A stretch of DNA of 64,000 bases from Heligmosomoides polygyrus polygyrus. Lineage: Eukaryota; Nematoda; Chromadorea; Rhabditida; Heligmosomidae. The stretch covers positions 9,595,298 to 9,659,297 of the forward strand of contig OX377203.1 in the NCBI GenBank assembly GCA_947396885.1, read 5' to 3'. The translations under genes were made by a program, and so were the position numbers. The notes below the pieces were generated by a model. The model had not been told where the DNA came from. It worked only from the letters and a program-made list of their open reading frames with translations, and searched no databases. This document shows positions 29,011 through 59,348 of the stretch, piece by piece. Each line of letters begins with the position of its first letter. The stretch's first letter is position 1.

Positions 29011-29861
29011 TATAACTATTTCGGTTTGGCTACAATATGCGCCTAAAATGTTGAGACATTAACTGCCTAGGGGAAAGGGCATTTAATGACCCAGTTCAGA
29101 AGATATTCACTTTTCGTGGCTCAAAAATTGCCGTATTATCCTCTCAATCCAGTAGTGCTAAATTTTTTAATCACGAAGGAAAACAAAATGTTAGTGCAGT
29201 TGTGCTTGGTACAACATCAGGATGATAAAAAGGTAGCTCACACCATACGGTATTTGGGTTTTTTCTCTATTACACTGGATGACAATCTTTTTGTTCTTCT
29301 TGAAACTATTTTGTTTAAAAAAGCTTTCTGTGGTTTATTCTCTTTGTTGACAACTTCGTTGACGTCCTAGGCAAAAACTTCCTTGAGTTCTCGTGTCAAA
29401 GGAAATGGTAAGGACCAAGAAAGTGTATAAATTGCATTTGATTGATTTAATGTGCGTAGGATGTAGCATCAACACGTCTGCTTCTTGCAAATGTTTATTT
29501 AACAGAATAGCAAAACTATCACTGTTTACAGCAAAAAACGAAAAAATGAGCAAACGTCAAGATAAATGTCCACACCGGAAATTAAGTGGAATTTTTTCAA
29601 AGAAACACCCGTTCAAATAATACACAGCCCTGATTTAGCTAACGAGATTCTGTGGGTCCACTTTGCCGCTGCCAGCACTGCAGTTCACCATGATCGAAGA
29701 GCCAGTAGACGCTCCAAATAGTCTTGGTTTTGGACGGCCATCTCGAAGGTGCTCTCAATCATTTGCTAAAAAGGAGGAAGTCGTTCCTTCGTCATTCCTG
29801 GCAACAACAAAACACCGGCGACTGTTGAAGCCTACCTCGATATATTCTAGGGTTTCTCGGT

Positions 29862-30666
29862 CTAGCTCGTCGTCTCCTTGGGCGAAGTTGTTGGCGGCTC
29901 GATGTTCTCTGGAAGCGTAACATAAGCGATGTCTTTCATTGTTTCCTGTTGGCGCTTTTGCAGTCTTTCGGAAGGAAGCTTTGCCCTTTTTGTGCTGAGA
30001 ACATGCCTTGCAAAACTAGACAAAATTAAGAGGTCTGCGAATGCGATAAGAAAGACAGTTAAAACCAATCTCAATTCGTTGTCTGCTTACCCTCGTTCCA
30101 GGCGGTCTACGTCAACGGCTCGGCTCGTTGAAGGAAGGAGCTGAAAACTTGGTCTCTAAAAGACTATCAAAACCAGCTCTTATAACTAAACTTTCTGAAG
30201 ACATAGTTTTGTCTACAAAAGAAGCGGCTATCAGAAGCTGTCAGGGCGGACACGTTGAATCGAAAAGAGAGCGACACCTCGTCCCTCACGAAAGCCACGG
30301 GAGCCTTCAGAACAGCTTGTTGGTAGGTATTGCCGTAGTCGTCAATGGCTGTTACGATGGCTATCGGAACCGACTGGCTCGGACGGTCCTTCACTTCGAC
30401 CTGAATTTCAAACATATTCCTATTTCGTATGTTTTTAGACTAAAAGTGCTGCTTACTCTGTTCCTTTCAAGCATGGAGCCTCTTATTATCGGTGGCGGTC
30501 CGTTGAAGAGATACAGGCCTTGCACTATCTCGTCACGCTCCCTCATCATGCGCTCGTGCTGAAACAGCTGCTTTAAGACTTCTAGAAATCGTTCTTTTTT
30601 TGCCAGCAGGTTTTGAAGTTGCGTGCCTGAAGATAGGGAACGCTCAACGGCTTCGGCGGCTTGCCA
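29862..30666 (-). CDS. Unrecognised protein, four 3'-terminal exons
   Basis: Four exons join in phase on the minus strand: about 30666-30457, 30400-30203, 30155-30091 and 29994-29862 (TAG at 29862). The first is charged and helical (LLAKKERFLEVLKQLFQHER, then MMRERDEIVQGLYLFNG). The second has a beta-like IAIVTAIDDYGNTYQQ segment. The last is basic, then Thr/Pro-rich. The donor after the second exon (TAT|GTCTTC) is weak, and the 5' exons were not found. It lies 750 bp downstream of the simplest stop of the large gene on the same strand. It may be a separate gene or an alternative 3' end of that gene, although I found no phase-correct join. No family recognised. Confidence 0.45.
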
Positions 30667-31418: not shown

Positions 31419-34400
31419 TCACTCAGCTGAAACATAATCAGTACCATTGTATGCCATCTGCAAAACGATATCGTCAACTGCTACCTCCGTTTCAGGCCTT
31501 CGTCTCGGGTCCACATCCGGTTTCGGATCTTTGCAGTAGGCGTACGTACTCCACCTCCGGAACACTTTCCTGAACGCCAGAATAGTCGTGTTATGAAATG
31601 TAGCGAGTGACGTTTGTGGTTATAGCTCTCATCTAACGATGTTTCATGTACCGTTTCTGTCTTTTTTGCGTTATTGTGCTCCTTCTATTTTCTATTTTTC
31701 AAGTACTGCAGACCTCTCGTTAAAAAGGGCGGCTATCCTATGCTTAATCTCAGCTATAATATCAGTATTTCTAGAGATATATGTGTAGCCTTGTAAAACA
31801 TGCGTATGACTCATAGTTGAATCTGGAATCACAGCGTTCAATCAAACTAAAAAGGAAGATATTGAGCTCTTGGGAAGCATTTAAAACAAGTTCACCAGAA
31901 AACTTATGATGGAATGCTTTTCGGTAAGCTATGATCAAATTCTACGAGCTTCTCAATGATTGGGTGTATTTGGCCTTGGGTCGCTAAAAAGCAATTGAAT
32001 GTCTAGCTGTCTCCGACCTGCTGTTTGCAAGGCCGTATTTTCTTCTGGTCTAGTGCACCAATGAACCTTTAGCCTTCGCTGATTTTTTTCGCAGCAACAA
32101 ACTACGAACTCGGTCTTCAAACAAGCTGGACATCATAAGTCATTGCAACGAATCCTCTTTAAGATTTCATTATCAGAACCGCTCACTTTATCGAGCCTCT
32201 CTTCGCCATGTTCCTTTCGAGGGTTCGCATCCGCACGACGTCATGGCGGTAGATCATCTAGGCGTGGCAAATTTTTATGATTATAAATATAACCAATTCA
32301 AAAAATTAGAACAACTCTATTGTGACTTTACACAGTCAGAACAATTCGCTAAAAGATTCCAATGCTGACACCACATAACTGCGGCCTCTTCACAGTTATT
32401 ATTAAAGTATATGAATTTTGCTAAAAAAGTTACAGGTAGTGTTAGAAGTAGATAGTCCAAGCCACGTAGGAATGCTTAACAGGCCACAACTATACCTCGA
32501 TTATAGAAGCCTTCGTCTTATTGGGATGCTTCTCCCTCAGCTTTCGATAAGCATCGCTCCACCTCTCTTCCAGTTCTCGCCGAACGACCCGGGGCAGGTA
32601 TCCCTGAAACGTGCTGTCCCGACTGTGAAATTGCAACGTCATATTTATGTCGCTACGAAATGTTACAATATATCCTAACGATATGATGAGAAGTGTGAGG
32701 AAAAGCGCAGGTTCGCGACGTAGCTCTTAGTTTTTGTTTTACCATCAAATTGCAAGAAAACGAATTTGGTTGAAACCAAGAAAAATAGTAGAGGAGCTTT
32801 GGAGGACCAGATAAGCAAAGGTGAAGAAAATTTTGAAGGCAAATTAAGATCCGCTTCTACTTGGGAGTAAATGGCTACAAAACATCTTAAATTTCATCCG
32901 TTCAGCTATACATCTGATAATCCGCGGACAGTGCCCCACCCTGTGTGCAGGACGCAGGTGCCGGAAGCGAAACCTCGTCCGTCTGAGTCTGGCCCTCGCG
33001 CCTTTCTCGAATCTGGCCAGGATTTCTTCCCGGCTCCACCTCGTGACGGGATCCGATGCTGGCGCCAGAGAGGACGGCAACAGTCTTATCGCTGTCCATA
33101 TCGCCTTGCTGTAGAGCTGCAAAGGAATCAGTAGCCAGTTGGCCTGTCCGAATAGTACGCTCAAACGTCAGAGAAGGACTTACTGACGGTGTTGTTACAA
33201 CGAATTGTAACAAGTTCATCGCACAGTACAGCAGTGCGAACGCGACGGTCAGCCTAAACAAGTGTGTTGCCGTTTTGCATTAAATTGTCTACAAGAGGTT
33301 TCATGAATGATGTATAAACATCCACATCCACTTTTTGAGTGTTCTCAGGTGAGATGCATTTGAATATATCCGCTTATGGATTTTACCTTCTATTCAAGAC
33401 GTGGAGGTGAACCAGTTTATTGCCAAAGAATACGGCTGCACACTCGGCGCTACACTTACAACGATGAAATTTTCACGGACGAGTTGTCCGGGACGGGTTA
33501 CAACAACAACAACGTGGTGGAACGCCACCGTATCGATTTTTGCTTTCTTTGTCGCGAGAGCGATTCTCGGACAACCCGCGCCACATACGCCACAGCCTGC
33601 ATAGCGACGAGGGGTGTTTCGCAGCGCAAGGCTTGAGGCCCACTGCTTCGGTGGTTGGGTTGAAGCCGCAAATTTTGGTTGGGGTGCTCGTGGCATCCGG
33701 GCGGAGCGAAGGTTGTGGAGTTGTGCCGAAGGGCGAGGCATTCTTCCGCCCTCAGACCGCGCTCCACGATGAGCACCGCACCCCAAGCCCATCGGCCCGC
33801 CCCGGAAAACTCGTCCGTGAAAATTTCATCGTTGTAAGTGTAGCGTCGAGTCGCACACACTACAGTAGCATACAAAAGGCGCGGGCCTTTCCGCCACTAT
33901 TTGACAGTGGTCGAAACGGGCTGTTCTGTATGTGGCGCGGGAGAGATGCTGAATCGCTCTCGCGACTGACGGCGAAACAGACATTAGACATGCAGAGGAG
34001 CGGAGAAGCGGTGAGAAATAAGCGGACACTAACTTCCAACTGACAGAAGAGATGATTACAACACATTTTAATTCTAACCAGTTAATGCTATTGTTACCAT
34101 GCACAAAAGACAATATCGAGATTACGCATGCCTTCCGCGCCCCAGTCTTGCCCGGTGCCCGTGCATCGGGTTCGCGATAGAGGGATCGAAGCTTTATTTA
34201 GCGAGGTTGCCAACGCTTTTTGCGACAAAATATGGGGTTTTTAGTCAAATATTGGTACTAAAATAAGGTTATAGTAACAGGTCAGGAGATGCTACTCCAT
34301 TAATCCACCAGCGTAGTACCAACGTAACATCCAGCACAATAAGGTCAAACTCGAGCCCACCTTCAAAACAGGTTCAAAACCAGGCGCAAACCAGAAATTC

Positions 34401-37400
34401 CAACTTCGCATTTCCAGCAAAATGCTGTGACTTTTACGTTTACGCCAAGAATGCAACTGAAAATACAACTGCGACGTACGTATTGGAGACTGGGTCCGTC
34501 ACCCAGTCGCTGGCGACAGCGAGGAACTGCCAGTATCCCAGCAGCAGCCATGATCCCGCCATCGTGAAGTGCAAGTCTCGATGACACTGCAATGGATGTT
34601 CGCTTGTCGCTCTCCAGTTGAGGCAGGAATCGCAGTTTACCTTTTCGATGGTGTTCCTCACGTCACCCGGTACTGACCTCGCGAACTCGTCCAGCATCTC
34701 CTGGTACTGAGGTAGGTTCCGCCTGATGTACAGTCCTCTGTACGAGTACGACGTGGCAGCTAAAGCTGCCACCGTATTCAACTGTATCAGCGGGAACCAC
34801 AGATTTGTTGACGTGACGGTGAACCTGCCCAGGCACGACCAAGTGCTAGTGACCTGAAGGAGAATTCTTTCTAGATCGAAACACACTATCTTCGTTAGAA
34901 TGTGGTTTAAGCAGATCTCGACGCTCATCTCAAACGTTAAAGAACGGTAGCTGAAGGCATTTTGGGAGCAGAAGTGACTGCTTTAACACGCGGTCGCCAT
35001 TTACCTGGTCATACATCGTTCTGAAGACGAACAGAACGACGGCCATCGACGAGAGGACCACGAAGCCCACTTGGAACTGTAAGTAAAAACGGGCCGTTGT
35101 TGCAAATCTCCTTGAAAATATAGTGGCCTTCGTTTTACCCCGAGCTCGGTCGGTTTCTGAGTGTACCCTGTGAGCACGCTCCTCCAGGTGTTCGTTCCCA
35201 GAAGCTCGGTGGCCCGGAAGGCGTTTCGGGCTTCTAGCGCCAAAAGACCGATGCCTGCAAGATTTAAGCTGTGATAGTCTTACTAATGACGCTAATAAAG
35301 ATATGAAACTTGAACATTTGACGATGATTCCTCCATATTGCCCACTAAAGAAGCACTCAACGTGTGAGAGTACTAATTTTCACTAATACACACAACTTTG
35401 ATTTGCTATAGGGTGTATTCTGTGTTATCTTGACGCCATTCGCCACTGCTCGTCTTAGACATGCCTGTCTATACATCTACTGAAGATGCGTTTTGGCGTA
35501 GCCGCTTCTGACAGATCCTAAAAGATTTGAGGGATTGCTTGCAAGCTGCCTTTCATGTTATGAAGTCGCCCAAATAGTCAATTCGAATAAAAAAGCAAGA
35601 AATTGTCGAAGCAGCTATAAACCTTTCAAGGAGTCAGTAACCCTTTCTCTTCTTTGGCGTACTACGGTTCCTGGGATATTTGACATTTACACCTACTGTA
35701 AAAGTGAAGCAACGCTTCTGTTTACGCTAGGTTGGTGAGAGCACGCCCGGCTTGGATGAGATTTCACGAGGAGATGAGGCAAAAATCAACAAGACTGAAA
35801 CTCTTATGACAAAAAAAATCTGCTCTGGGTGCATAGTCCACTCTGTCCATTCATTAAAAATCATTCGATATGGGCACAACAGCCAGCCACTTTACTTCTA
35901 CCTCAAGCTACCGTAACTACACAGGGAGACACCCAACGTACGAACCCGGATTGAGCAGTAGAAGAAAAGCGCTAGGCTTAAAAAGATCCAATCGAATATT
36001 GTTCTGTGCTTAAATTTCACCTCATATATGCTTACTTCAGAGACACAGAGATAAGCTATACCTGGGCTTACGAAGTGTTCTTCAATTGCTCTACACACAC
36101 ATTTAGGATAATTCAGGATTCAGTTGATTAGCGTTCGCCATTGTGTATTGGATGGAGGCCCTTCCCTAGGAAATTCTTCAGTCAAAGACCTAACTTCCAC
36201 TGAAAGTTCTGGAAAGCTCGACGAATTGACATTATAGAGGGATGAGTGTTTAGTAATATTAAGCTGTCGCAAAAATACTCTTTCTTTCAAGGTATGTATA
36301 ACTAAATAGAGTTTTCCCTAGATCAATCGTCTCAGGAAAGCCACGCACTTTGTTTAGTACGGTTTTCGTGCGCTTGCAAAAAAACATATGTGGAGGTTGC
36401 TCCAGTTTTTCTAGCAGATCTTTTCCAGGGCTCCGTAAAATCATGATTGAAGTGACCATCAAGTCATCATGCTCTACGATATTAAATTGGGACATTCTAC
36501 GGCAGAGGCTTCTCGTAGCCTTATCAGCGCTTGTAGACGGACCATCCTTGCGGAAGAACGGTGAGACTCCCATAGAAAAATTCGCTTCTGGCGATTTTGA
36601 TCTTAAGAAAAACCGGGTAGCGGGAGCGGGTCGTCGCATAACGATAAAGTTTTTAGAAGAGCCGCCAAAATAAATCCGGAAACGAATACACGTATGTTAG
36701 CAGAGGACCTTGTCATACATCATCACAGGTGAGAATCGGCAAGGTCAAGAAGATGTCGAAGTGGGTGCCCGATGAGCTGACCGAGGAGCAGCGCCTGGGA
36801 AGTTTCCTCACTTGCTCCAACCTGCTATTTCGCTTTAAAAATGAGCCTTTTGTAAGCCGTATTCTAACTGTAGATAAAAGACTGTCGTTTACGATAACAG
36901 AAAGCGGGGTTTTGTCTGGGTAAACAAGAATGCTCCTCTAAATTTCCTTCCTAAGCCCGACCTTCACCCTAAAAAAGTTATGCTTACTTTGTGGTGAAGG
37001 CGTAACCAATTACAGCTTTTTGCAGCCTGGTCAGCGGTCGCAGAAAAGTCTTAACGCTCTGATTTAGATAAAAGATGTGTTAGAAGATGCAAAAATTGTG
37101 ACCGCAAGCGGTGATAGAGGATGTCAATCCTGTTTCAGGACAACTCGAGGCCACACACCTCACAAATCGCTCGGCGAAAATTGAACCATTTAGGTACCGA
37201 AGTTCTCCCTCCCCCACCATATTCCCCATTCCTTTTTCCCTCTGACCGTCATCTTTTTCGAGCTCTTGATTCTCATTTAACAAAACAGTTCACTAATTTG
37301 GCCGAATTTGGCCGTTGAATGTGTCCTCCTTGATGTCGTTAATTCCTGTGATCTCAATTTTAATTGCAGAAGATTGGAATCATTACCTTTCCGTTGGCAA

Positions 37401-40400
37401 AAAATTGTTGATTCTAGCGATCTTTCTCACGATAAGCACGATTGTGTTTAAGCTGCGATAAAGCAGTTTGAAGAAAGCGGCCACTTTCGTCTATTAATAT
37501 TGCAACAGCTTAATATTCTCAAGCATGAGCAGGACGATGAAACCTTAGTACAGTGAGTTACAGTAATGATTGGTCATTCTGTTTCATTAGTGTATGGAAT
37601 CAAAAAGTGTCCAATTATTTTTGGAATACTGGATCTAGCGGATAGTACATGATATATCTCCATTAGTAGGTAATATACCTCCAGTTGTGTTGTTAAGAAC
37701 AGCTACAATTCTTGTATTAAACAGCTCAAAATCAATCAATTTCGAGCGAAGTGTCGACCTAAACTTCAGCCTACTCCAAGCAAACGAGAATTACTCTAAC
37801 GGACTTTATGAACTTCGCCGTGGTAGTCCACGTTCTCCCCTTGTCAGCTCTACAAACATAGTATAACATACCGCACGACAGGAGCGATGTGGTGACGATG
37901 AACCAGAATCCGCAGCTGTATGCTCGCAGGCCAAGAAGTGCCGGGTGCCGGAACAGTATGACAGCTAGAGCTGCCGTCGCCAGCACACACGAGCGAGCGT
38001 TTTGGAAGAACACTTGCGGGTCCTGCAGGTATTGGTGTAGGTTGCATGGGTTTAGAATTACTTACACTTTGTATTTCGTAAACGACCCTCGCTAAGTTAA
38101 AACTTAATTGACTCTTCCCTTTCATTCCTTCACAGTTGAAGCTAGTATTACACTTGTTCCCCTTACCGTCTTATGATCTACATACTCACATTATACTGAG
38201 CCTAGAGAAATCTCTAAATTGCAGTGACCTGATCCAACTACTGATGCTTATGGTTATTTCCTCCAATGACGAGCTTGAGTAGAATTGTATAAGCTTACTT
38301 CCTCCAATGATAATACTTAGCAAATTGTAGAAGCTGGTCTAATATTTTGTATTTCATCATGCAGTTTAAAGTAGTTGTGTCACCTATTATATAGGCCACT
38401 TCGTAGTCTAGGTCTGGGTTGCCGGCTCCACATCAAATCTAACCAAAACGTTCACCTAAAAAACATCTGCTTTTAGCCCCCTTCTGCCTCGTTTTAAGTT
38501 TCGGAAACAAACTGAACATTTTCCAAAGTAAACTTATCGTATTCCAGAATAAACTAAAAAGCCTAGAGTTTAGAAAAAAATGTAATACCACTTCATTCAA
38601 AACTTTTTAGTTTATCTGTTCCAAAAAGCAAACACCCAGTTCGAAAGTTTATAAAAGTTTATTTTTCAGGAAAGAATAATGGTTGAAAGCTCATGCCTAA
38701 AGTAATGCTTAAGGTACAGAAAGGCTGAATTTGTTCAGTGTTGAAAAGTAGATTGTGCCGAGCACCCGTGGTATTCACGTCAGAGGAGACTGAAAGCCAA
38801 CACTTTTCTTTTTAAAATTGAAAAATTCTAAGAAATTTCCAGCAGAGTTTCCTTGATAAGCGAGCCAAATGCAAAAAATTCAAAGAAAGTCAAACTAAAT
38901 TTCTCTAAGCTTCACATAAACAGGAGGTTGATTTAACCTTCTCGAAGAGTCTTTCATTTAGGCTGAAGACGATCTTTCTAATCTTCCTATTTCGAAGAGG
39001 TTCAGCTTGATTTTTAAAGTCTTCATAGAAAAGAGTTCAATTTGGTTGGAAAAGCGTAACATTTCACTAAAAATTAAAGTTTAATGGCAGAACACTTCAC
39101 TGAGATTGGGATCTGCACATATTCATTCTGCTTCAAACACAAAAACAAATCCAGAATGTGAGTAATTTTACTGTGCACCGAAACTGCTAAACGAACCAGC
39201 GGTCTTCAAATTTTAAATAAAAATTGTACAAACGTTTATAGAGAACATTATTCGAATCTAGAAGCAATAGGTTATCAGATCGGTAGTGGTGCGTATAAAA
39301 TAAAGCGCAGTCACACCGCAGGTGTTCCTTTTCATACTGGAATATAGACTACTTATGTTTTCTTCTGGGGCCAGATTCTTGAACGACTTACCGGCCTGTA
39401 GTTGTAAAATCTACCTTCACTCCCTCTTACCCGTGGTCCATGAACGCGCGACGGGGAAAATCAGCAGCATGTAAATGTCAAGTTAAATGCTACCTCGCTA
39501 GCGCGTTCAGGGCCCGGATTCAAACGAACACGCCAGAGGTAAATCCTACCCTGTTTTTCTTCGACGGCCTATTACCCGCCACTTTCTGGGAACTTACCTC
39601 TGTTTCATGACAGCCAAGGCAAGGGTCTTGCTCCGCTGCCAGGGAAGATTTGCATTGGGTCAGAAATTAGCAGAAGAGCTAAACCCTTGCATGGAAGTAA
39701 ATGTTCCCCGACGTGCTGACGAGGTAGCACATCGACACTCACTTCAAGTTTCCCCGCCGCGCGTTAATGAGTCTGGAGGTGGGTGTTAATCCTGCACTAA
39801 CCCGCAGGTTAGTCATTCATGAATCCGGCCCCTGGTTTTCCCCGCCGCGCGTTTTCGAATCGAACATAAATGGGGAGTGGCGGTAGGTTTTGCACTTAAC
39901 TGCCTGTAAGTCGTTCATGAAGGGGTAAATGTTCTGGTCAGATTCATGAACCGGCACAGTAACGTTCCTGCCGAAGCAAGAGTTTTGCTCTCCCGCTAAT
40001 TTCTGACCCAGCTCAACGACTCTGGCCCGTTGCCAACTCACCAGCCAAATCATTGCTCGAAAGGACGCCTAGAAGGGTCAGAAATTAGCAGGAGAGCAAA
40101 ACCTTTGCTTATGCGGTTATGAATCAGAAACAGAAGTAAGTTCGCACTAAGTTGTCGTCGAGGTAAATCGGGGTAGGATTTACCGCCGGCTGCCTTCACG
40201 AATCCGGACCTGATCTCACAGCATAGCTGCAAATCGTGTGTTAAGTGCTACCTGTCCTTTCAGTGTCTCGTCCTTGAGGAGGATGTGGGCAACGATCAAC
40301 GCCATTTCCGTGAGGAACAGTGCCGCCGCGCTCAGAGTTGGAGCAGAGACGAACGAGCTCTGCAACCAAACGCGTACATTAGGGGGGTGCTGTGGAAAAG

Positions 40401-43400
40401 TGCAGTGAACAACCTGAACCAACTTTCGTGTCGGAGTAGAAGGCCAGTTCCGATTTGTTAACCGTGCAACGGGCTCCTGCGAACTCTTCGTCGCACACAC
40501 AGACCGCCTGGAATTTATAACAGCAATGATAAAAGCCAGAGCCGTTTCGTTTGGTTCTAAGAAGATTTTTGAGCGTTTTCTTTATTCCAAATGTCAATGT
40601 TTGGAAAAGAACGCCTTTGCCCACTTTCTGCAGGTATGCCCTTTACGACCAATCTTTAGGCAGAGACGGTGATATTGTCGTGTCGAGCCCAGCACAGATT
40701 GACTAACGAAACGTCGGCAGATCTTACCACAGTTTTATCTTACCATTTTCACCCGAAACACCGTGATGAAGATGTGTTTGGCTATTATACGCATATACTG
40801 CTATACTGGTGCTATACTTGGTTAGAACTTCGTAGTGATAACGACCACCTCCCTAGCGCTACTGATAGTCGTTACCGCGAGCCGGATTCATCAACGCAAG
40901 TGTCGGTAAGTCGTTTCCAGAAATTAACCTAACCGGCCTCATACCAGACGCTCATAGGCACTTGCGCCTCACAAAGTTCGTGGAGAACGATGCCGCGCCG
41001 TAAGTGGAGGGCTGTTGTGCAATGGCCGCCATACTCGCAAAAGCAATATTCCACCGCATAGTGCAATATTTCAAAATTTTGTTTTGGTTTTTCGAGAACT
41101 TTTGACGCCGCGATGTTTTGATGTGAGGTGCTAATTTGAAATTTTCGTCATCTAGAAAGCAAACTGAGCAATACAAAATTGCTCACATTCCACTCTGACC
41201 CAAAGCTATGGTTCATAGTAGACTTAGGATTAGAATGCTGTCTATTGCAATCTTGAAATTTGTTTTTGGCGGAATTCCAGAGCCCAGAGATTGCCTTATC
41301 GACACCGACAGCAGCAGCCCCTTGCGGGGTGAATCAGCTAATGGCGGGTAGTGGGCAGGTACTTCATTAGGGAAGCGTCACTTTTCCTCTTTTCGGTCCC
41401 TCAGCGAGGGAGTGTTGTGCATTAGTATTGCGTTAACTTAGCATCCATCACCTTGCCCTCACCTTGACTGTCATGTTTACCGTTTCACGCAGCGCTCCTG
41501 TAATCCTAGAACTATGCAGGGATCAGCACTAGCTCTTTATAAGGACTTCTCAATGACGGCAGGAACAGTAGGCCAAACCCAAAACTTTGACCAAATATGC
41601 ATTCTGGTGTTTGTAGTAGAACTAATGTATCATGTAATAAGGGCCAAAAAGTTGCTTATATAACTGTCATAAACGTTTTTCTTATAAAATTTTCTTATAT
41701 AACATATTAGAAAAAAATCGCTCTATTCACATATAAAGGTCGCTAACAAATGGAACTGATACAAGATGAAAAGAGAACAAAATCTCGAAAACGCCCATGT
41801 GTATGCGTCAGTCAATGATCTTCACCGCAAATCTACCACGACGCGCGTTGATGAAACGATGAAGGTGGCGGTTTTGCGATGAGTTTCATCGTTACAGGGC
41901 GGTAAATCATCTAAGAATCCGGGTCCATAAATTTCTGCTAAATGTCGGCACAGCTACTAAGATAATTTTTGCAACTTCTACCGTTGTTGCCCGCTAAGTC
42001 AGAGATGAATCTAGACCGTGGAAGGCAAACACGGTCAGAGCGGCCGAATGGGATTTCTATCGCCGCTAGACCTCATTCTGCAGCACTGAGGAAAAGACAC
42101 AATGGAACGGCTCACTTTGTTTAAACTGCACAAACATACTACTCTTTTGTTACTGCTGCAATGGAGAAAGAACTTCGTCCAACTGTGTGGCTCTGCATAC
42201 TAAGCGTCACGATCAGAAGCAGTGGACGCACATGAGCTCAAACCCAACTTACATTGCTCGTTTACTTGTGTCATTCTCAAGATCATCGGTTTAACTTCAC
42301 AAAATTCTAAGCTGTCAAGGACACCTTTTAGCTAAACTTAGCCGTTTCCAAATCGATCATCTGGTACTTAGGCTGGTTTCCTGTTGTTTTGCCAGAAAAG
42401 GTATCTGCCTCTTAGCCGTGTACTGAATTCTATTTAGTACATAAAATACTTAAAATATTTTACTTAATGAAGCAAAGAAAAGGAAAGCACAGTTGTGTCC
42501 CGCCGCTCTATCCTAGGCCGATTTATTCCTCGACCTCACAGACAATCGAGGTTTGGATCGTCCATGGGTGGTTCGTCCGCTCTTCCTGGAGCTCTATCGA
42601 AATGCCGCTACCCACAGGTGAGAGAGAGTACTAATAAAACAATAGCTACTCAGCACGTGCCTTTTATGGATATCAGATCATAGTAGGGTGCGAAATTCAT
42701 ACTACGTGAGAGAAAGGCGATCTATGTGGAATCCACACATAAGAGCTTAGGAAGCGAAAGAATTCAAAAAGATAAGCGAACGATGCGAAACATGTATCCG
42801 TCACAAGCGCCTGTTTTCTTGCTCTTCAATAAATGTGTTAAACCGTTCAGAGAACTGTTAAAACTCACTCGATCCACCTGCGATTGGCATCTCCCGTGCT
42901 CGCACGTGAGCCCGGTTAGTGCACACATGTTGGGCGACCTCCAGCATGTGAACCCCTAAAGGAAATTGTCAGGGAAAGCAATACTACTACCACAATGATC
43001 ATTACGGCTCCGTAGACAGCGCGAAGTCTGACTCGCTGCGCCGACGATGTTTGACTAGTAGTCTCTTTTACAAAAAGCAGTGCAATACGTGGCGAAAATT
43101 TAACCTTCGACTATTTGTTGAGTCTCTCGTCTTTTTCGGATGCAATACCTATTGCAGGTCACTCGCTAAAAAATTCGCTTCAAAAGAGTTTTTCCTCAAA
43201 TGGTGAAAGCCTCACTTTATGTCTCACTACATCCGGACGAGTTTCAAATCTCTTCGTTCGTATTTTCTTTGGTGAATTGCCACTATACTGTACTGTTGTA
43301 TAAAATATTGTTCCATTCCTGGACTGATATATGCGAGTCAATTAGAAAAAGACGTATGTTCTGTCTCGACATCAAATTTACAGTGGGATTCTCACTTTAC

Positions 43401-46400
43401 TCTTTCTCAAAGCAAATTGAAATAGTAAGAACAAAAGTTTTATGATAATGATCGAACAGTGACATCCTTTTGGAATGACGTGAATTGGTGTGCTGGTTTT
43501 ACAGAGATACAGAGCTTGACCTTGAACGGAAGCTTTTCTTTGATGTTCAACATTGCTGCTCACATTGGAGATTCAACAAAAGCAAACTATAAAAGATGAT
43601 GAAACTGCGAGTGAGGAACTGTAGGTGAGCACCACCAAAGTCAATCAAGCGAAACGCGACACACTCGATGAAATGCATGGCAGAAGCTTTAAACGAACGC
43701 ACCCAAACAAATCGACATCTTTGAATTAGGATGACACCATTGACATATATTCTGCTTCACAGGCCGCGGTTTTACGTTTGAATTCCTGTAGGTTTACATG
43801 AACAGCGAAATTTTAAAAAACGTAATTTTTGTTGTGTAATTTTTACTATTATCTCAACAACAACAAAAGCAAGCTAAAAAAGTGTCCGAAATAATCAAAA
43901 AATAAAAAATAAAACAGAAATTTTTGTTCATCAGTACTTAGCACTCAGCGTGACTGCGGAGTAGAGAAAACTCATACACAAATCTAGCGTGTTCACTATA
44001 GTCTCTCCCCTCTTGATGGCTACGGTGGGCTCTTGAGGAATAGGCAATAAGCAAGTGGAAATTCGGAATTGAACAAAAGTTTGAAACATAATTGGATAAA
44101 AAGAACAGGAAAACCTTATGAGGTGTCACGATCTCGATGAACCGCGATGTATCTCCGCCTACATGCCAACGCCTTCGTTACGGCTTAGGCGATAATATAT
44201 ATGGTACCGTGATGGCAGGCAGAGTGGTAGCGCCATAGCGTAAGACCACCGTAGTGTTGACCGCTGTCACAGCATGTGACGTCCCTGCGGAACCAGCTTG
44301 AGAGCTCACGTAAAATGGAAGAGGTAAAGTAAGGAAATAGGAGAGAACCAGTTCAGGAAATTTATATGCAATTGTAGTCTCATAAAGTGGCTTTGTCTAA
44401 TTAGTTGTTATACTTATACAAGAATATATAAATAATTCAAAGTCATCTGTAGAACCACCAAAATCAAATGGAATCTTGATGAAATTCCAAAAAGAGGATT
44501 CTCGTCGACATCCAGCTAATAGCCCGATAGAAAATCAGATTAGCCGAAGCTCCTTAATAATAGAATAGTAGGAGCCAGGAACAAGGAGCTTTTTCAACAA
44601 CGTTGAAGCCAAAAGAAGAAAACTTGAGAGTTTGAAAAATGATAGAACAATAAATAAATAAATAAAGTAGGTAAACACATACGGTCCAGTGTTCGCGACA
44701 TTTGCAAAGGACGCCGCCCTCCACACGCACACACTTTTCCGTTCCCAATCTCCAGCATTCCGTGCATGAGCTGCGAATCTTCCTATTCCAAGCGGTCTCT
44801 TTTTCACCATCTAGAAGCACTTAGTGTCAAAACGTTCGTTAGGCTGAGGTATCAACTGCTCGTTTGTCTGCTGCAGAAAAAATGGAGGATTGTTTAAACC
44901 ATTTGTAGCAAATTTTCTAAATACAAAGGGTTGCTTGGATTTGATCAAACTACTAGCTTTTTTCCTGACTTTCGCTATTTTAACTTATATGTCAATATGC
45001 AGAATTTGATAAATGGCTAAAACTAGCAAGAAAAAATAAGACAAACTCACCGTCAGTCTCACACTCAATCGTTGTAGGATGGGGTGTTAATCTGCCGTAG
45101 TTGTCGCAGGTGACTTGAACCGTGGATTTTGTGCCGGTGCATGAAATGCTATAAAAGGGGTTTAATAACTAAAACTTAAAAAGCAACACCAATTCCTGAT
45201 TTTAGTGCTGTTCTCTTGAAGTTTCCTTTTCGCTTTTTTCTGTGTGATGCGAAATCATTAAACAGACCCTAGCATTTCATTACTCCACATTGTTGGTATC
45301 TATTCCTTAGAGCATTTAGCAATATGAAGCCACTATTGCTAGCCTAGAATTGCCTGCTCTTTGTCAGACGAAGGCTCGCTTAGCTTACAGCATGTGAATA
45401 ACTGCTTTCTAACCTATTCGAATACAACGTATTGCTTCAGGGTCTAAACATTCGGCTAACCACGTGCTTCTGACAAGCTGCTGATATAGCCGCTTGTCTT
45501 CCAGGAAGTTTCATTCTGCATCGCAGTGCACGAAAATTTGGATCGCCATCAGCCGCTACACGAGTCGGCTAGGAGGCGAGCGACCGCCTTCATGTAAGCA
45601 GCTTTCAGTAGGTGAAGCATTCTTAGCACACTGGACAGATGAGAAGATCACTTTCAAGTGTAATGTCCAACTAGGAATCGAGAATAAACCTGAGGCGACA
45701 AATTTATTATATCTACATGGAGGAATATACAGTATCTTTCCAAACACAGCAAGTGTCATGACCGTTTACGATCTTTGCTGTTCCACGAACCAGTGGATCG
45801 CTCTCTGAGTAGAAATGCTTGTTTGTTTTTTTTTGACTATGTACCGCAGGATACTTAAAAATCGTGACGTTTTCAAAGTGTCGTAAATCACCGATGTTCA
45901 ATTTGCTTCGTCTAATAAATCTGCTGCTGTACTGAGCTTTCCGAACACTGAACAGTGCTGTTGCATCCTTTAAGCAAGTTCGGTAAGCACAAAAAAGCTG
46001 GTCCGTTGCCCTGTGAACTAGAACGTCTTTTGATCTGAAGTGGTCCGCACAGGTCCACATCTCACAGACAGTGCTGTAGTAAATAATTTATGGTAAAGCT
46101 ATACCTCTCATCGTCATCACGTGCAAAGTGCTCATTGCGAATTTCAAAGTACGCGCGAACAAACAAGTGTTCTTTGGCGAACCACAACTTCAATATGAAG
46201 GGCGTCTCAAAGCCGTCAATCCCAAAAAGGGAGTATCGACCAAATCAGTACTGCGGTGGCGAAATTTGCAGGTCTCATAGACAAGATGAATCATGATAGT
46301 ACCAAAAACAAAGACGACAAAAAAGCACTCTCACCGAAATGAAAGCTCTCGAGAAGGAAACGAACTTCACTAGAGTTATGAGCAAGGCAACAGATCTAGT

Positions 46401-49400
46401 TATAGCCTTCAGCAATTATGGATCACATCCAGTTTAATCCTCACACAGAGGAAATGAAGTTTTCAAAAAGCAAGGCATGGCGAAGCACTGAAAACTCACT
46501 TCGCAACCTCTCCAATCTGCAGAGTATGGTTGGCAGGCAGCGCGAAATCGTCTCCAGGTCGGTAAAAGCTTATTGTTTCCAGGTCACAAGACAGTTGGCC
46601 GCCGAACTCTAAATTCCTCTCGGCTTTTCATGAATTTACATTTTTGGTCATACACAATAACTTGTCATTTGTTACAAGGAAACATTCTGAACAATCCTGA
46701 GCTGCTACTGCGCGCAACGGCAAAAACTTCTTTAAGAAACACCGCAGACAGAAAGAACAAAAGGGGTTAGTACGCTATTGCCTTCTACCACCTTAGACTA
46801 ATCACATGTAATGACAAAGAAAAAGGGATTAAAGTGATAAAACAATAGCCAAGAAAGTTAATTAGTTCGCGAAAGTAGTCACTAACACAAGGTGTGACTC
46901 ACTTTAAAAATGAAATATAGAGAGTGATGAGCTACAAGCTGAGTATATTAAGGACAGCGGCACGCTTTTCTATTTGCCAGCAAAAAGGAACTCAACGTCT
47001 GGCAGTGCTGTGATTCAGTAACTGTTAGGACTACAGTTGAAGCGAGCTGCCTCTGTGAGGATCTTGAGTTCAGACTAGAAAACTTACTCCCTTGCAAAAC
47101 TCGGTGTTCCCGAAAAATTAAAGCTTATAGAAGATATGTCAATGTTATATCAGTATGGATTGAGCAATGTAACAGTGTACTATAAACTTGAGAAGGAAAA
47201 AAGGAAAAGGCAGATGTTGAAGAATGAGAGCTACAAGAAAAAATTAAATAAATCAAATCTGTGTAATTAAACCAATTAATTAGTAAAAAATATAAAGCAG
47301 AAAAAATAAGCACAAATGGAATGGTGCACGTGGTAGTATGCCTTATGAAAAGTCGGTAGAAAACGAATGAACCATGGTGCTAGGTATGCAGCAGGTAAGC
47401 GCCGAACTGTGAGGCAGCAAAACGACAAAGTCGGGCAACATATTAACATTATAGGGCGATGGAGAAGTAGCAGAGGCTACGAGACATTTCTTTGTTTTTT
47501 ACCACCGCAATCTTACTGGGCCAACTTGCTATCTTTATTTTTTCAATTTTTAACAATTTTTTTCAATACACGCCATAAACCTTAAATGATACAATGACAT
47601 GCGTACTTTTTGCCAAAAAAATAGTGAAACTCACTTGGGCAACGACAGATTCCAACCGTGTTCGGAGAAGCGGTATCGATGCCAGCAGTTGTGTTCACTT
47701 TCAGGAGAGCTATGTTGCTTCTTAGAAGAGAAACAATTCGAACAGAGTGCGTCTTCTTCAGAAATTTGGAGCCATTTTCGTTTATAAACAGAAGGTCGAT
47801 TTGAGGAGACTGCGTTTCGCTGAAAATCACAGCACTGCATTGTTGTCTTTTCGAAGTATTCCGTAGTCATAAATTGTAAGTATTATATTTGTATAATATT
47901 GAACGATAAATAATACATTGCTAAAGAACAACAATTATTGTTGCTGAAGGGTAATTGAGTTGAATCAACAACGATTTACGAAAATGGTGCGGCATTCAAA
48001 AAGAAGACATTTAATAAAACTTTGCAAAGAGCTAAGGTGTTATTCGGGTATTAAATCTTTATGCTGAACAATTCCTCATTCTTCATTCTAAAAAAATCAT
48101 TGTGTTTTGTTTAAATAGAACAAGTACAATTATTGATTTTTAGCGATAAATAAATTATTTTTCTGCTTCCTTTTTTTCTAGTAAACAAGCCATACCTGAG
48201 ATTCTTCATGAAGGGAAGCACTTCGTTGTTGCGCAAGTCGGCCTCGTCGATCAGATCGGAGTTCTTGTCCAGCGTGCAGAATTTGGCAGCCTTAAAAAGG
48301 AGCGATACTACTAATCTTGTCCGTACATCATGCATATCATGCGTGTCTTACTGAAGCTGGATTCATCAACAATTAAATCGGTAGTTATGTGAGGTACAAG
48401 AAGTAGAGATAAGATACAGATATGAAGGCTTCACCATGGGCACCTCCACTGTTTATAGTAGTTGATGAATTCGGCCCCTGAACGAACAATCTACAAATCT
48501 TTCCTAATTGATTTTCCATGGACACTTACATGATTTTTTTTTTGTATCATAGTAGTGTGACACCAAATTAGCTTTTTAGGAGTAATTAAATCAATTTCTA
48601 AAACAGATAGAAGCAATCCTTATTTTCTAGTGTTCATGTACAAGACATGCTCCTGCTACATTACAAGACCACTGCTCACTCAGGTCAACTCCAAACCTGC
48701 AAAGAAGAAATCTTATTTATTTATTTATTTATTTAAAGACAAGACGGGTTAATTAATTTCGTCTCAACTCGTCCCGACAGAGACCTAAAAAAGAAATTAT
48801 TTAAAGAGGAAGCTAGAAGGGCGAAGAAGTTTTTCGCAAAACTAATAGAGAAGAACGCAAACCCGCAGTCAACCGATCATAAAAAAGAATTGACCATCCA
48901 TACAATGCTTCCTTTAACAAGAGTCTTTCTAACTCTAATTAGATAACCAACATTTAAAGTGGGAAGGAAACAACTCAATATGAAAGAACAGCAGCAGAGT
49001 TTTATGTCATGCCGCCGTGCCGGAAATAACCACCAGCAGGATGCCCTAGGCGGATCACGTTACGAACTACTGTGTTACATAGACCAGTTCGCAATTTTGA
49101 CGTTGCTGACTTTGTCGATAAGGTTATAGAAGTTGGTACAATACAACAAAAGGAGCTACAATACAACAGAAAAGATTTCTAACTAGGGTGAGAAATAGTG
49201 GCAAACTACATAGTTATACTTGAATTCTTTGAGGATGTCTGAATAAAAGAAGACACTGATATGAGACACAAAAAATTCGACCCAAAAATAAACAAAATTT
49301 AAATCCAAGAAAAAAGGGAAAAAATTTAGAACAGTATAACATATGTTGCCTGTATTCTAACCTTCAAAAATATAAATATGTATAGCAGTGTTTTGCTTTG

Positions 49401-55400: not shown

Positions 55401-58400
55401 CGTCACCGTAATAGAGGTTTGCCGCTGCGTATAGGGTTCCAGACAAGATAGCGGGAACAGACGCAAGAACTCCGTTTAGCCGCTGGGTAGCGGAAGGTGT
55501 CACTGACCCAAAGCTATATTATCCGACAGGGGCGGTGAATTCAAAAACAAAGTGATGGAAAAGCTCACTAAAATTACAAGGATAGAACATGTTATGACAA
55601 AAGGGTATAATGCCAGGGACGTTCCCTTCAGCCTTTCCGTTCAGCCATAACGGCATAAGGTGCCAATGGAGTGGGATAGCGGACGGCCGCTTTGCATGTT
55701 TGCTAACAATACTACCCTAACCATTCGACAGGAGAGAATCTCACTTCATATTGCGCGGCATCGACCCTAAGGTGCCGTCGTTCTTAACTCTAAATGGAGG
55801 TGTATCATGGTACGCTATGGATAACAATAAGGAAGATTATAAAGTTCAGTTGCCACAATTCGTGGCCGACGCGAACAATCGAGTAAGAGAGTACAATAAG
55901 CGTATGCAAGAGAGAATGAAGAGAGTATGATGAGAGAAAAAAGGTGTTGACAAATGTAGGTTAACAAAGACAGGAGATTTGGTATAATCAACTAGGGAAA
56001 AGCTATGTGTATGCATCCCAAGCTTACCTGTTAATTTGCAGGCCCACTCTGAGCTTAGAACGAGTGAAAACTCGGCAGTAATAACAAGCATCGGAGAGGA
56101 CAGGGACCCAGTGAGAGCGAAGTTTGACTTGCTAGAGTAGTCTCACCTTATATGTCAGACGAGCAAGTAGATACTGTCACCGGTAGAGGAAAGAGAGGGA
56201 GGAAGCCTCGGATTTGAGTTAGTAAAGTTACATATCTTGTTTTAGTGTCGCTGTGCTGAAATCGACGAGCGAAAAGTGACACTTGAACTACGAGCGCAAT
56301 GACGGCTGCATCAATACTACGACGTTAGAAGAACTCGTGGGCATCCAGTCCCCAGGAGCTCTAACGAAAAAAACGAATTCTGGCAAGAATGCGCCGTATG
56401 TCTAGATGTGGAGGCATTGGTACCCGTGCTGCGATTAGCCTACGACAAGTGTTCGATTGTACCGAATTTGTTAATGTAACCGATGGAGTTAAAATGAGCA
56501 CGAAAGGGTAGACGAATATTTGTTCGAGACTGCGTATGATTCCGCTCTAAAGAAGTTGAAAATATCGCTAGAGGAAGAGGAGAAAGCCAAGAGGCCTGCA
56601 GAGACTGCCGAATGGCTTTGCGGCTCCAGCATGCGCTTCGTTACTGGAGAAGGATGGCGTGAAACAAGGAATTGCCACACGAGTAGCGAGCACATTCAGG
56701 CAGCTCAGTGAAGTTCTTAATGAATGGAGGATGAATAAAATATGGGTCGGTTGGTTGATGTGGCCACTAGATAAAACGTTCAAGGATGACGAAATCGTCG
56801 AGATTATCAAAGCGTGCGACCGACACTTTGAAGACGGAGGAAGATTCGTTGCTGTGTGGGCGCCAGTGCATGAGCGAAATCTGGATGATGTTGGAGCAGG
56901 CGATTAGAAACCACACCAGAGCGGGACAGTTTTTAAGGCATCGGATACAAAATTGAAAAATGGACGTGTAATTTGTGAGGCTAATTCGCCAAAAGTCGCG
57001 ATCTCACTTTATGGTAATGGCAGTACTGTATCGTGCGCAAAGGTGTCGTATGAGACCATAAGAAAAAAGATGATTGTTCGGCAAGTACCTGCCCTCGGGC
57101 TCAGCTGCTTACTTGATTGCTTAAAAAGGGCGCTACCCGGCACAGTATAGTCTTCGTAGATTTCCATAGCAAAACGTAACCAGTTCAGGCCCATTCTCAC
57201 CTTGCGGTAGGAGTTCGCGCTCGGTGGTGTGAAGCGATAGCAATAGGTTGGACCTTCGAAGTATTCCGGAGGACATGGCGATGGATCAGTTGATGGCGCT
57301 AAACAGGCAGAGCACTAGATGCGTTGGCAGTTCAAAAACCAAATCAAGAACACTAGACGTTCCAACTTACATGGAGTTGGCGTCTCTGAGTTAGTACTGC
57401 TGTCGGAGGGGCTCGTTCCTTGGTCGACAAATGCGCTGGTTCTTGTGTCTGCTGGTTGCTTTGTACCATCTGTTGCTTGCTCTGCTTCCACTGACGCTGG
57501 CACCATATCACGAACGCCGTCAGTTGTTTCGCTCCTTACGTCTGGCTGAGTCGTTTCAGTGTTCAATCCTTTTGTGGTCCATGGCATAGACGAAGAAGCC
57601 GATTTCAGAGTGCTCTTCTCCGTTGGAATTTTCGAGTAGTCGCCTGTCGTGGAGGTTGAAGTGTAGTGGTCAGAACCGCTGAGGTGATCCACGTTTAGGG
57701 GATGGCTTGACGTTGGTGGCCTGGATGTCACCAGTGGGGAAGGCTTTGCTGTCGACGTTGCTGGGATTTCCTTGCTTTCAGGGCTCGATTGGAGGGAAAA
57801 TGGAGTGAAGGGAGCGCGCTTGAGTTCCGCTGTTGTCATCGTTCCACGAGAAGAGGCTTCCGTAGTATCCAGGGTTGTGAAGCCCTTGTGGAATACCAGC
57901 GTTCCTAACCCCTCTGTGGATGCTTCTTCGGTGGTGCCAGCCTGAATTGCCGACGTGGAATCGTACTTCTCACTTACAGCTGTGTCTGATGAAGACGAGT
58001 CAACGAATTCAGTCTTGGCAGCGGACGTCGGGGTTTGTTCAGATGTCAAGGTTGTTGTCTCTAGATCTTCAGAAGTTGTCGCAGTAGGTTCCTTATGAAT
58101 AGGCGATGTTGCAGATGAGGTTAATTCATAATGGTTTCCAGTAGGAGAGGAGATTTCTTCCGGTACCGTATTTGACGTCGTCGAAGTCAAACTCTCCGAC
58201 GATGTTGTCTCAATTTCTGCAGGGAGTGTTTCAGAAGAACTCATCGTGGAAGAAAGAGGCTCAGAATCACCGGCTGCAAAAGAATGAGACACCTCACTGG
58301 TTTGGGAATCGAGAGATGGTGCTTCCGATAAAACCGACGAACTAGAGGATCTGATATGGCTAGTTTGATGATAGACAGAAGTCGGAGACGTGGCGGTAGC

Positions 58401-59348
58401 AGACCTTATTTTTGAGGTTAGAGAAGCACCTGTAACAGGAGAAGCAGAGCTCGTGACGTGCACAGACGATTCAGCAGTGGAATGTTCGCTAGGTAGTGAG
58501 CCAGATTCCAGAGAGGGAGTTGTTTGGTGTGCCAGTTCTGCTACCGTTGTATCAGTATAATGAGTTGACTTGCTACCGGTGGGCCACTCCGCAGATGAAA
58601 GCGATACCTGATCGCTGTAGCCGTGAGAAGTGGAGAAAGTTGTGAGAACCACGCTTTCCTGTTCCAATGATGATCTTGTGCTGTCGCCTAGTGGAAAGTT
58701 CTGAGTTGATAGAGAGTCGCTAGATTTGGGTCCTTCAGTTGTGCCAGAAGAAGAACTTTCTGAAGTCGTAGGTCCGTTGTAGTAGAAAGATATCGGCTCC
58801 TCTGTCGTGGTGGTCATCATGTTAGTACTAAGCGTGGAAGCAATTGCTTTGGTAGTACGAGCCGCCACGTTAATGTTTTGGTTCGTGCAATACCACAAAG
58901 CTTCCGCTTTTATTTCTTGAGGGCAATCCTGTTTTTTGAACAATCCCATATCATCGCAATAGCTTGGTTCGAGGCAGGGGCACCTCACATAACATTTCTG
59001 ACCTTGAAAACTGATGAAGTTTTCATTCACAAATTGTGTGATGTCTTTCAAGATGCAGCCATCTTTGCAGTTCTCCATCGCATTTGTCTCGTCATAATTG
59101 AAGTCTCCAAGCCATTTCTTTGTTGGTTTGTAGCAGCTTGAGATCCACTTTTCCATGTCCATTGAGCATTCGTCACTTTTGTTGAACACTGAAGAAAAGT
59201 TTCCTAAACTTTGTTCATGCCTGCTTTCAAACACAACTTGTCTAATATAATGAACTAAAAACTAACCAGTCGCATTCCCTTGTGCGAAAACAGAAGGGCA
59301 AGTGAGGAAGCGCAAGAAAGTTACCGCTGCAAGGATAACTCGTAGCAT
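31419..59348 (-). CDS. Large mucin/lectin-like/sushi/EGF protein with seven predicted membrane spans, 24 exons
   Basis: Exons (high-low): 59348-59267, 59188-57371, 57298-57201, 48290-48196, 47819-47635, 46516-46500, 46250-46105, 46073-45845, 45630-45560, 45148-45051, 44810-44683, 42955-42869, 40507-40424, 40359-40252, 38022-37795, 35517-35475, 35254-35139, 35076-35005, 34853-34480, 33253-33184, 33143-32940, 32603-32496, 32257-32187, 31569-31419. All have AG/GT borders and join in phase, about 1560 residues. Order: signal peptide; ten-Cys domain; Ser/Thr stalk to about 633; lectin-like start (CPPEYFEGPTYCY); unrecognised segments; sushi-like 890-946; two six-Cys EGF domains about 955-1035 (KCREHWT/GFTC, VCVCDEEFAGARC); seven hydrophobic spans about 1050-1380; basic tail. 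No GPS/GAIN or PLAT motif was seen, so it is neither a clear adhesion GPCR nor polycystin. One in-frame TGA sits at 46245. Least certain are the 17-bp exon (46500-46516), the 47819 acceptor (alternative 47834) and the 3' end. Confidence 0.75.
33442..33851. mobile_element. Foldback MITE with 56-bp terminal inverted repeats (copy B)
   Basis: Same 410-bp element as at 1429-1838, with one extra mismatch in the left repeat (CTCGGCGC for CTCGACGC). It lies in the intron between exons 34480-34853 and 33184-33253. Confidence 0.9.
36355..37490 (+). mobile_element. Degenerate mariner transposon (copy B)
   Basis: Same relic as 4370-5500. Plus-strand pieces include KKMSKWVPDELTEEQRLG at about 36750, FQDNSRPHTSQ, EVLPPPPYSPF and FRALDSHLTKQFTNL (37121-37318). 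The C-terminal part is slightly better preserved than in copy A, but frameshifts remain. Antisense in the intron between exons 37795-38022 and 35475-35517. Confidence 0.85.
38186..39366. other. Unique part of a large-gene intron
   Basis: Between the duplication edge and the first MITE. AT-rich, with no coding signal or clear repeat. Confidence 0.5.
39367..39832. mobile_element. MITE, GGGGCCGGATTCATGAAC family
   Basis: The left end GGGGCCAGATTCTTGAACG and right end TTCATGAATCCGGCCCC form terminal inverted repeats. Additional family ends (GGGCCCGGATTCAAACG near 39510) indicate nested copies. Intronic to the large gene. Confidence 0.75.
39936..40210. mobile_element. Foldback MITE related to the GGGGCCGGATTCATGAAC family
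   Basis: The ends TCAGATTCATGAACC and TTCACGAATCCGGACCTGA are inverted. Long internal arms, GCAAGAGTTTTGCTCTCC plus GCTAATTTCTGACCC, recur inverted at about 40075-40120. A related GGGTCAGAAATTAGCAG block is also in the neighbouring element (about 39658). Confidence 0.7.
40508..42868. other. Large-gene intron between the two EGF-coding exons 42869-42955 and 40424-40507
   Basis: Contains GCCGGATTCATCAACGC at 40880 and GAATCCGGGTCC at about 41920, possible ends of a roughly 1-kb member of the same MITE family. A short GC-rich palindrome (CCCCTTGCGGGG) lies near 41320. No gene was recognised; short ORFs here have no continuity. Confidence 0.45.
42956..44682. other. Large-gene intron, no other feature recognised
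   Basis: AT-rich, with ORFs of up to 81 codons and no recognised domain. No splice-phase-compatible exon was needed or found here. Confidence 0.45.
46245..46247 (-). other. In-frame TGA codon in exon 7 of the large gene
   Basis: The exon 46250-46105 starts TAC TGA and then stays open for 46 codons (FGRYSLFGIDGFETPF onward) to a phase-correct donor. No AG lies between the TGA and the coherent frame, so no alternative canonical acceptor avoids it. It may be a TGG-to-TGA mutation, an assembly error, or a non-canonical exon start. Confidence 0.6.
48356..48478. mobile_element. Short MITE, GGATTCATCAAC ends
   Basis: GCTGGATTCATCAACAATT and TAGTTGATGAATTCGGCCCC form terminal inverted repeats around a 90-bp interior. 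It is a short member of the GGGGCCGGATTCATGAAC family, intronic to the large gene. Confidence 0.7.
48479..49529. other. Large-gene intron segment, no gene seen
   Basis: AT-rich with a short (TTTA)n run at about 48712-48735. Confidence 0.45.
49530..49960 (+). mobile_element. Penelope-like element relic
   Basis: Frame-broken plus-strand pieces read VRVVEISPANLKDH, QPCVISPFGNEGDCTSG (the Cys-x2-Cys-type linker before the endonuclease), and ISARLILETLYIAARTSRL (end of the GIY-YIG region). Order and content match the copy at 27334-27807. Heavily decayed, antisense within intron 3 of the large gene. Confidence 0.7.
49961..50384. other. GC-rich segment, possibly the 3' part of the Penelope-like relic
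   Basis: Contains GACGGGGTCGGGGGTGGCCG and a CGTGGCC block, with no coding signal. Its composition differs sharply from the neighbouring AT-rich intron. Confidence 0.35.
50385..51043. mobile_element. TTAA-flanked, piggyBac-type non-autonomous element
   Basis: The left end TTAACACGTTCACGACCA and right end TGGTCGCGAATGTGTTAA are terminal inverted repeats with TTAA at both extremities, the hallmark target of piggyBac elements. Near the right end are two palindromes, GTCCACTCAAATGAGTGGAC and GTCCACTCATATGAGTGGAC. No transposase is present; the 94-codon minus ORF is not recognisable. Confidence 0.8.
51044..51839. other. Large-gene intron segment, no gene seen
   Basis: Between the TTAA element and the gypsy relic. 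Short ORFs on both strands only; a 5' LTR could lie here, but I could not pair it with a 3' LTR. Confidence 0.4.
51840..57150 (+). mobile_element. Ty3/gypsy-type LTR retrotransposon relic
   Basis: Plus-strand pieces occur in pol order. A gag-like zinc knuckle CYNCHRCGHIG lies near 52810, its last Cys replaced by Phe. The start of reverse transcriptase (GDRKPIKMKTIPVSLGI) follows near 53590. After that come TPFGL near 53970, DDIIICTD-like near 54065 and FLGHVVNGGGTHMYPKKVEA near 54190. An RNase H end follows (LQRYKLEIKYVEGKTSEV, 54790), then integrase (CQRCLV, 55270; VAILELGPSSSG, 55360; LSDRGGEFKNKVMEKL, 55520) and a downstream ORF (VGWLMWPLDKTF, 56745). Many stops and frameshifts make it inactive. 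LTRs were not identified, so the borders are approximate. It is antisense within the 9-kb intron 3 of the large gene. Confidence 0.85.
57371..59188 (-). CDS. Exon 2 of the large gene: ten-Cys domain and mucin stalk
   Basis: This 1818-bp exon is the largest open frame of the window. It starts after CTTTTCTTCAG and ends at CCAT|GTAAGT. The first 100 or so residues contain ten cysteines (from DECSMDMEKW to EALWYC) and no named domain. The remaining about 500 are mostly Ser, Thr, Pro and Glu (for example TTTTEEP, SSSSGTTEGP, SSETLPAEIETTSSE), a stalk expected to be heavily O-glycosylated. Reading through the donor adds a short spurious tail. Confidence 0.85.

Follow-up and report, generated by a model that had tools for sequence, protein, structure and literature searches.

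A 64,000-nucleotide stretch of the genome of Heligmosomoides polygyrus polygyrus (contig OX377203.1 of assembly GCA_947396885.1, positions 9,595,298 to 9,659,297; hereafter the window) carries on its minus strand a gene whose 1510-residue product is quite probably a surface receptor. Its seven-transmembrane (7TM) domain is predicted to take the fold of G protein-coupled receptors (GPCRs), closest to that of the adhesion (class B2) receptors, and has no GAIN domain. Judged by the predicted models, the kind of receptor is a known one but the family is new, and the sequence profiles tried here do not see it. The preliminary description of this DNA had supposed an undescribed class of nematode surface receptors, which is a fair description, except that the kind of receptor is known and it is the family that is new.

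Relatives of the gene were searched for with residues 829-1230 of an earlier gene model, before correction of its tail. Four of the 7997 scored candidates matched with E up to 10, and because their values run from 1.4e-180 to 6.3e-57, chance is excluded. These are P0001 from Heligmosomoides polygyrus (E 1.4e-180, 90% identity over 82% of the query region), P0002 (E 4.5e-112, 785 residues), P0003 from Nippostrongylus brasiliensis (E 2.4e-63) and P0004 from Necator americanus (E 6.3e-57). P0002 is most likely a spliced transcript, since its source contigs (at most 2738 bases) are too short for the introns of this gene. Seven more relatives came out of two profile searches: P0005 and P0010 from N. 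brasiliensis, P0006 and P0007 from H. polygyrus, and P0008, P0009 (E 9e-4) and P0011. In the second of these, the matches assigned to genera came from Heligmosomoides and Nippostrongylus only. No member from C. elegans or another clade was found among the candidates scored, which does not imply absence elsewhere, as each search scored about 8000 candidates sharing most words. P0001, P0006 and P0007 of H. polygyrus lie on contigs that differ in length, so that the family appears to be multi-copy in this species. The proteins are named "unnamed", "hypothetical", "EGF-like domain-containing", once "G_PROTEIN_RECEP_F1_2 domain-containing" and once "DUF4149 domain-containing" in the databases. Among the papers listed in an open-access library on nematode 7TM proteins with lectin, mucin, EGF or sushi parts, nematode EGF-TM7, GAIN in parasitic nematodes and helminth GPCR families, none deals with this receptor family.

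The membrane part had been described as seven spans of no recognised family. Seven membrane helices are indeed present in the structure model of a relative, whereas by hydropathy alone five of the seven spans pass 1.3; transmembrane helices (TM) 5 and 6 are supported by the structure model and by conservation. In the family alignment, the Cys at the start of TM3 (six of six covering rows) and that of the second extracellular loop (ECL2; eight of eight) are invariant and would form the cysteine pair of the GPCR superfamily. A Glu in TM3 is invariant in all eight rows and stands 21 residues from the Cys in 6/6, which is the class B spacing. TM6 has two Trp columns without variation in the seven covering rows, one of which could correspond to the toggle Trp W6.53 of adhesion receptors. 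The [DE]R[YF] (DRY) and NPxxY motifs are absent from all eight rows, two of which end before TM7. The tethered agonist, sought as T.F..L[MI], is likewise absent from the eight rows, two of them being without the linker and TM1-2. No GPS or GAIN match was given by Pfam in the window pieces or in seven homologues, and the 22 residues between the last EGF Cys (914) and TM1 (937) leave no room for such a domain. According to a 2026 review, most adhesion GPCRs have GAIN, and their tethered-agonist consensus is TxFxxLM (PMC13197933).

It is by fold that the membrane part resembles known receptors. The matches of two AlphaFold2 (AF2) models are GPCRs, among which adhesion receptors rank first: ADGRL3 and CD97 are ahead by 3.6-4 Z in the fold comparison (VIA), and LPHN2 and CD97 lead in Foldseek. 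Within the TM blocks of the two models, the predicted local distance difference test score (pLDDT) is mostly 59-90. The profile and structure checks that the preliminary description had proposed diverge, profiles giving no GPCR and the fold giving GPCRs, adhesion receptors first. As had also been claimed, no PLAT, GPS or GAIN signature was seen; PLAT, GPS and the polycystin TM domain have no Pfam match, and polycystins are not among the fold matches listed. A membrane domain like that of TMEM8/PGAP6 or of meckelin was considered and dropped, neither family being among the Pfam matches. Two weak hits were judged to be chance: DUF6720 (E 0.043 and 0.29 in separate scans; one of eight members at 0.045) and, within the tail, DUF6176, which stays below its cut-off (E 0.0087). 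As GAIN, the tethered agonist and a 7tm_2 match all fail, membership of the adhesion class is not claimed; in appearance, and probably in its way of working, the predicted protein is like an adhesion-type GPCR that lacks GAIN.

The gene was rebuilt by a splice-site and coding-score search, by reading frames and then by homologues (Table 1). The final model runs over 25 exons from 59348 to 29685 with a single terminal stop, and all 24 junctions are in fitting phase, as had been stated of the earlier model; phase and open frame guided the choice of exons, so that this is not independent proof of the model. A single minus-strand gene of many exons, as described before, is borne out, although its end at 31419 and its count of 24 exons are not. 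The exon from 31569 stops at donor 31485 and splices to 30558, four more exons follow, and the true stop codon is at 29687-29685. The basic tail after TM7 thereby has about 300 residues instead of 175, and the earlier residue numbers needed correction. Exon 18 starts at 33116 and reads LYSKAIW..., the frame seen in P0002, P0006 and P0008. The 54 bases at 34640-34587 were taken as an intron because they are absent from P0001, P0002 and P0004. Clean exon matches to P0001 are mostly of 80-100% identity. The model is weakest at the acceptors of exons 6 and 20 (splice scores 1.5 and 0.2), at the exon 13 donor (2.0) and at the 5' boundary of exon 24. When no homologues were used, the exon search produced spurious exons and put the tail in a wrong frame, and a scan of single open reading frames one by one gave nothing useful. 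Intron 3 (57200-48291) is 8.9 kb long. Broken open frames lie within it on the plus strand at 53500-57000, presumably those of a Ty3/gypsy-type retroelement, which may be the reason for its length; Pfam gave no match above cut-off for these frames, only a weak GBBH-like_N (E 0.0069).

Table 1. Exons of the predicted receptor gene and its second copy in the window
Feature	Position	Strand	Content	Support
Exon 1	59267..59348	-	start codon and signal peptide	gene model; hydrophobic peak at residues 4-22
Exon 2	57371..59188	-	ten-Cys domain and Ser/Thr-rich mucin-like stalk	match of N. brasiliensis P0003; stalk partly matches P0001
Exon 3	57201..57298	-	degenerate C-type lectin-like domain, start	Pfam UL45 C-type lectin-like, E 4.3e-4, below cut-off
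Exon 4	48196..48290	-	lectin-like domain, middle	P0001, 90% identity; P0003 and P0005 continue unbroken
Exon 5	47635..47819	-	lectin-like domain, end	matches of P0001, P0002, P0003, P0004
Exon 6	46500..46608	-	sushi-like region, part 1	weak acceptor; homologue comparison and gene model
Exon 7	45051..45148	-	sushi-like region, part 2	homologue comparison and gene model
Exon 8	44683..44810	-	EGF domain 1	P0002, P0003, P0004; profile against Notch EGF pair, E 1.1e-6
Exon 9	42869..42955	-	EGF domain 2, part 1	P0002, 86% identity
Exon 10	40424..40507	-	EGF domain 2, part 2, and juxtamembrane segment	homologue comparison
Exon 11	40252..40359	-	TM1	homologue comparison, hydropathy, structure model
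Exon 12	37872..38022	-	TM2, first extracellular loop, TM3 with invariant Cys	homologues, second copy, family alignment
Exon 13	35167..35254	-	end of TM3 with invariant Glu, second intracellular loop	gene model, second copy, family alignment
Exon 14	35005..35110	-	TM4	second copy; junction Gly-Arg common to P0002, P0003, P0004, P0005, P0007
Exon 15	34641..34853	-	ECL2 with invariant WxC, TM5, third intracellular loop	homologues, second copy, family alignment
Exon 16	34480..34586	-	TM6	homologues, second copy
Exon 17	33184..33253	-	TM7	homologues, second copy
Exon 18	32940..33116	-	helix 8 and basic proximal tail	P0002; P0006, P0008; second copy
Exon 19	32496..32603	-	tail	P0002, second copy
Exon 20	32187..32257	-	tail; very weak acceptor	phase, resemblance to P0002; second copy, 95.8% identity with AG and GT
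Exon 21	31485..31569	-	tail	P0001, 100% identity
Exon 22	30457..30558	-	tail, past earlier gene end	P0001, 94% identity; P0002
Exon 23	30278..30400	-	tail, past earlier gene end	P0001, P0002
Exon 24	29836..29994	-	tail; 5' boundary least certain	phase; LDxETL stretch common with P0002
Exon 25	29685..29765	-	conserved C-terminus FxMAVQNxDYLxR and stop	P0002; C-termini of P0005 and P0008
Second gene copy	2..6201	-	exons 12-20	direct repeat of 31954-38185 at 90.6% identity

The ectodomain is largely as it had been described before. The protein has a signal peptide-like start, ten cysteines in residues 35-128 of its mature N-terminal part (33% identity to P0003, with eight cysteines in common) and, at residues 141-632, a stalk of 492 residues with 47% Ser/Thr/Pro, close to the 500 or so residues given earlier. 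What had been called the start of a lectin-like domain is lectin-like, not just a start, being a whole degenerate domain spread over exons 3 to 5. Its profile gave nine matches in PDB, four of them C-type lectins or snake-venom lectin-like proteins, none significant (best E 0.18). A sushi-like region follows, assigned from its cysteine pattern only and without a sushi match in Pfam, and then the two EGF domains already recognised, with six cysteines each in the family alignment. Single-sequence Pfam matches to EGF are below cut-off (E 0.0038), and it is the family profile that matches Notch EGF pairs. GPR128_N (PF22257) matches weakly over the EGF part, below cut-off, with E values of 0.04 for the window piece and 0.087 for P0001; GPR128 is an adhesion receptor. 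The same domain order, a search for which had been proposed, is found in another strongylid: P0003 runs from signal peptide, ten-Cys domain and stalk through lectin-like, sushi-like and both EGF domains to TM1-5 only, its end being a different reading. Stalk, lectin-like, sushi-like and membrane parts are also present in P0001, P0004 (which ends after TM6) and P0005, with incomplete EGF domains. Extra residues of P0001 inside the lectin-like domain, part of which match window positions 52369-52286 at 75%, were not adopted since they disagree with the other relatives. The same was done with its junctions that are at odds with them, which leave out EGF domain 1 and half of EGF domain 2 and give another TM4 junction and another tail frame.

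The second copy of the gene keeps AG and GT at all nine of its exons and backs the exon boundaries of the main gene, weak exon 20 included. Over exons 12-20 the copies differ by 22 synonymous and 13 nonsynonymous changes (synonymous rate dS 0.086, nonsynonymous rate dN 0.016, ratio 0.19); the count excludes a single codon, which is an in-frame stop in the equivalent of exon 14. The comparison with homologues shows none of the lectin, sushi, EGF and TM1 exons for this copy; it is thus truncated and probably not functional. Either a partial duplication in tandem or the joining of a divergent haplotype could account for it. The copy is adjoined by a tandem repeat at 6415-6864 (period 146, 3.1 copies), and a 200-base N gap lies at 7880-8079. 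Further along, open frames at 13961-14970 on the plus strand resemble those of pyruvate dehydrogenase E1 beta.

Several points weigh against an adhesion-type receptor. None of the eight members matches PF00001 or PF00002 in Pfam, where E was allowed up to 10 and filters discard most matches above 0.1. The hhalign score against a hand-written class B consensus (13.6) falls within those of 60 shuffles (mean 13.1, maximum 19.6), and searches of PDB sequences with the membrane part gave chance matches only. The VIA lead comes from two inactive-state entries only, other adhesion entries scoring 15.6-18.2, level with those of classes A, B1 and F. The P0002 model has no Foldseek match with E < 1e-3, and Foldseek root-mean-square deviations are mostly 6-10 A. 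Both models are of moderate confidence (mean pLDDT 55.4 and 57.5, predicted TM-score 0.46 and 0.50) and, being built on the same eight sequences, are not independent. The UniRef name of P0007 comes from a class A profile and that of P0010 from DUF4149, and the P0001 gene model differs from ours at several junctions and in the extra residues of its lectin-like domain. The level scores and the class A name would sit well with a membrane part of another GPCR class, class A-like or nematode chemoreceptor-like, that gained its ectodomain; the leading places of adhesion receptors and the lack of DRY and NPxxY motifs would not, and we regard this as somewhat unlikely.

It is also unlikely that the protein serves in adhesion or anchoring, with the 7TM merely a membrane anchor and the mucin/lectin/EGF ectodomain as its working part. 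A large modular ectodomain, a short linker without GAIN and the absence of class A activation motifs speak for such a role, whereas paralogues share a conserved TM core as well as a conserved third loop and proximal tail, which, like the dN/dS of 0.19 over the TM and tail exons of the second copy, is more than an anchor would need. Very improbable is a false fusion of two adjacent genes, one for a secreted mucin/lectin protein and one for a sushi-EGF-7TM protein. The length of intron 3 would allow it, the stalk-to-lectin junction is a predicted one, and P0002, which may be 5' incomplete, begins only inside the lectin-like domain. However, intron 3 splits the lectin-like domain, which runs gap-free in P0003 and P0005, and stalk and membrane parts stand together in four gene models of three genera (P0001, P0003, P0004 and P0005), all of them automatic predictions.

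For the GAIN-less adhesion-type receptor preferred here, each step past the predicted fold is one that we infer. Outside the cell there would be the ten-Cys domain, the Ser/Thr-rich stalk, the degenerate lectin-like and sushi-like modules and two EGF domains, joined by a short linker to the seven-helix domain, which is followed by the long, basic, conserved cytosolic tail. Such a receptor would most likely be a sensor of contact, glycan or protein: the stalked ectodomain would bind matrix or a ligand, and the signal would travel through the 7TM domain and tail to G proteins or tail-binding partners. The C-terminus that the window gene has in common with P0002, P0005 and P0008 may serve to bind partners. 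Having neither GAIN nor GPS, the receptor would not cleave itself as ordinary adhesion GPCRs do. A wider picture is more tentative, with the odds somewhat against it: strongylids may have their own multi-copy, GAIN-free adhesion-type GPCRs, missed by profiles, which have a mucin-lectin-sushi-EGF head convergent with vertebrate EGF-TM7, sense contact or glycans, and signal via G proteins and FxMAVQNxDYLxR. Fold comparison places among GPCRs what profile searches miss, in a family that occurs in three strongylid genera and, it appears, in several copies in Heligmosomoides. GPCRs are leading targets of drugs, and if the reading is true, a receptor class would be added in parasites of people and livestock, together with a natural test of adhesion-type 7TM function without GAIN self-cleavage and tethered agonist.

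According to the review cited above, C. elegans has only three adhesion GPCRs, LAT-1, LAT-2 and FMI-1 (PMC13197933), and the H. bakeri genome paper reports that a GPCR-linked chemosensory term is enriched in hyper-divergent haplotypes (PMC10682056). The window protein is like adhesion GPCRs (class B2; latrophilins ADGRL2/ADGRL3 and CD97/ADGRE5) in that these are the best fold matches of its predicted 7TM, and in its long modular ectodomain and conserved TM3 and ECL2 cysteines. Unlike them, it has no room for GAIN/GPS, no TxFxxLM tethered agonist and no Pfam 7tm_2 match, and it has lectin-like, sushi-like and ten-Cys modules and a 300-residue basic tail. EGF-TM7 receptors (the ADGRE family) hold EGF domains, a Ser/Thr-rich stretch and a 7TM in one protein, a combination that the window protein repeats; its mucin-like stretch, however, is N-terminal to the EGF domains, GAIN is missing, and lectin-like and sushi-like modules are added; the likeness is likely convergent. 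ADGRA1 and Methuselah-type receptors are GAIN-less class B-like receptors. The window protein, with its predicted class B-like 7TM and no GAIN, would resemble them in this; the ectodomains differ.
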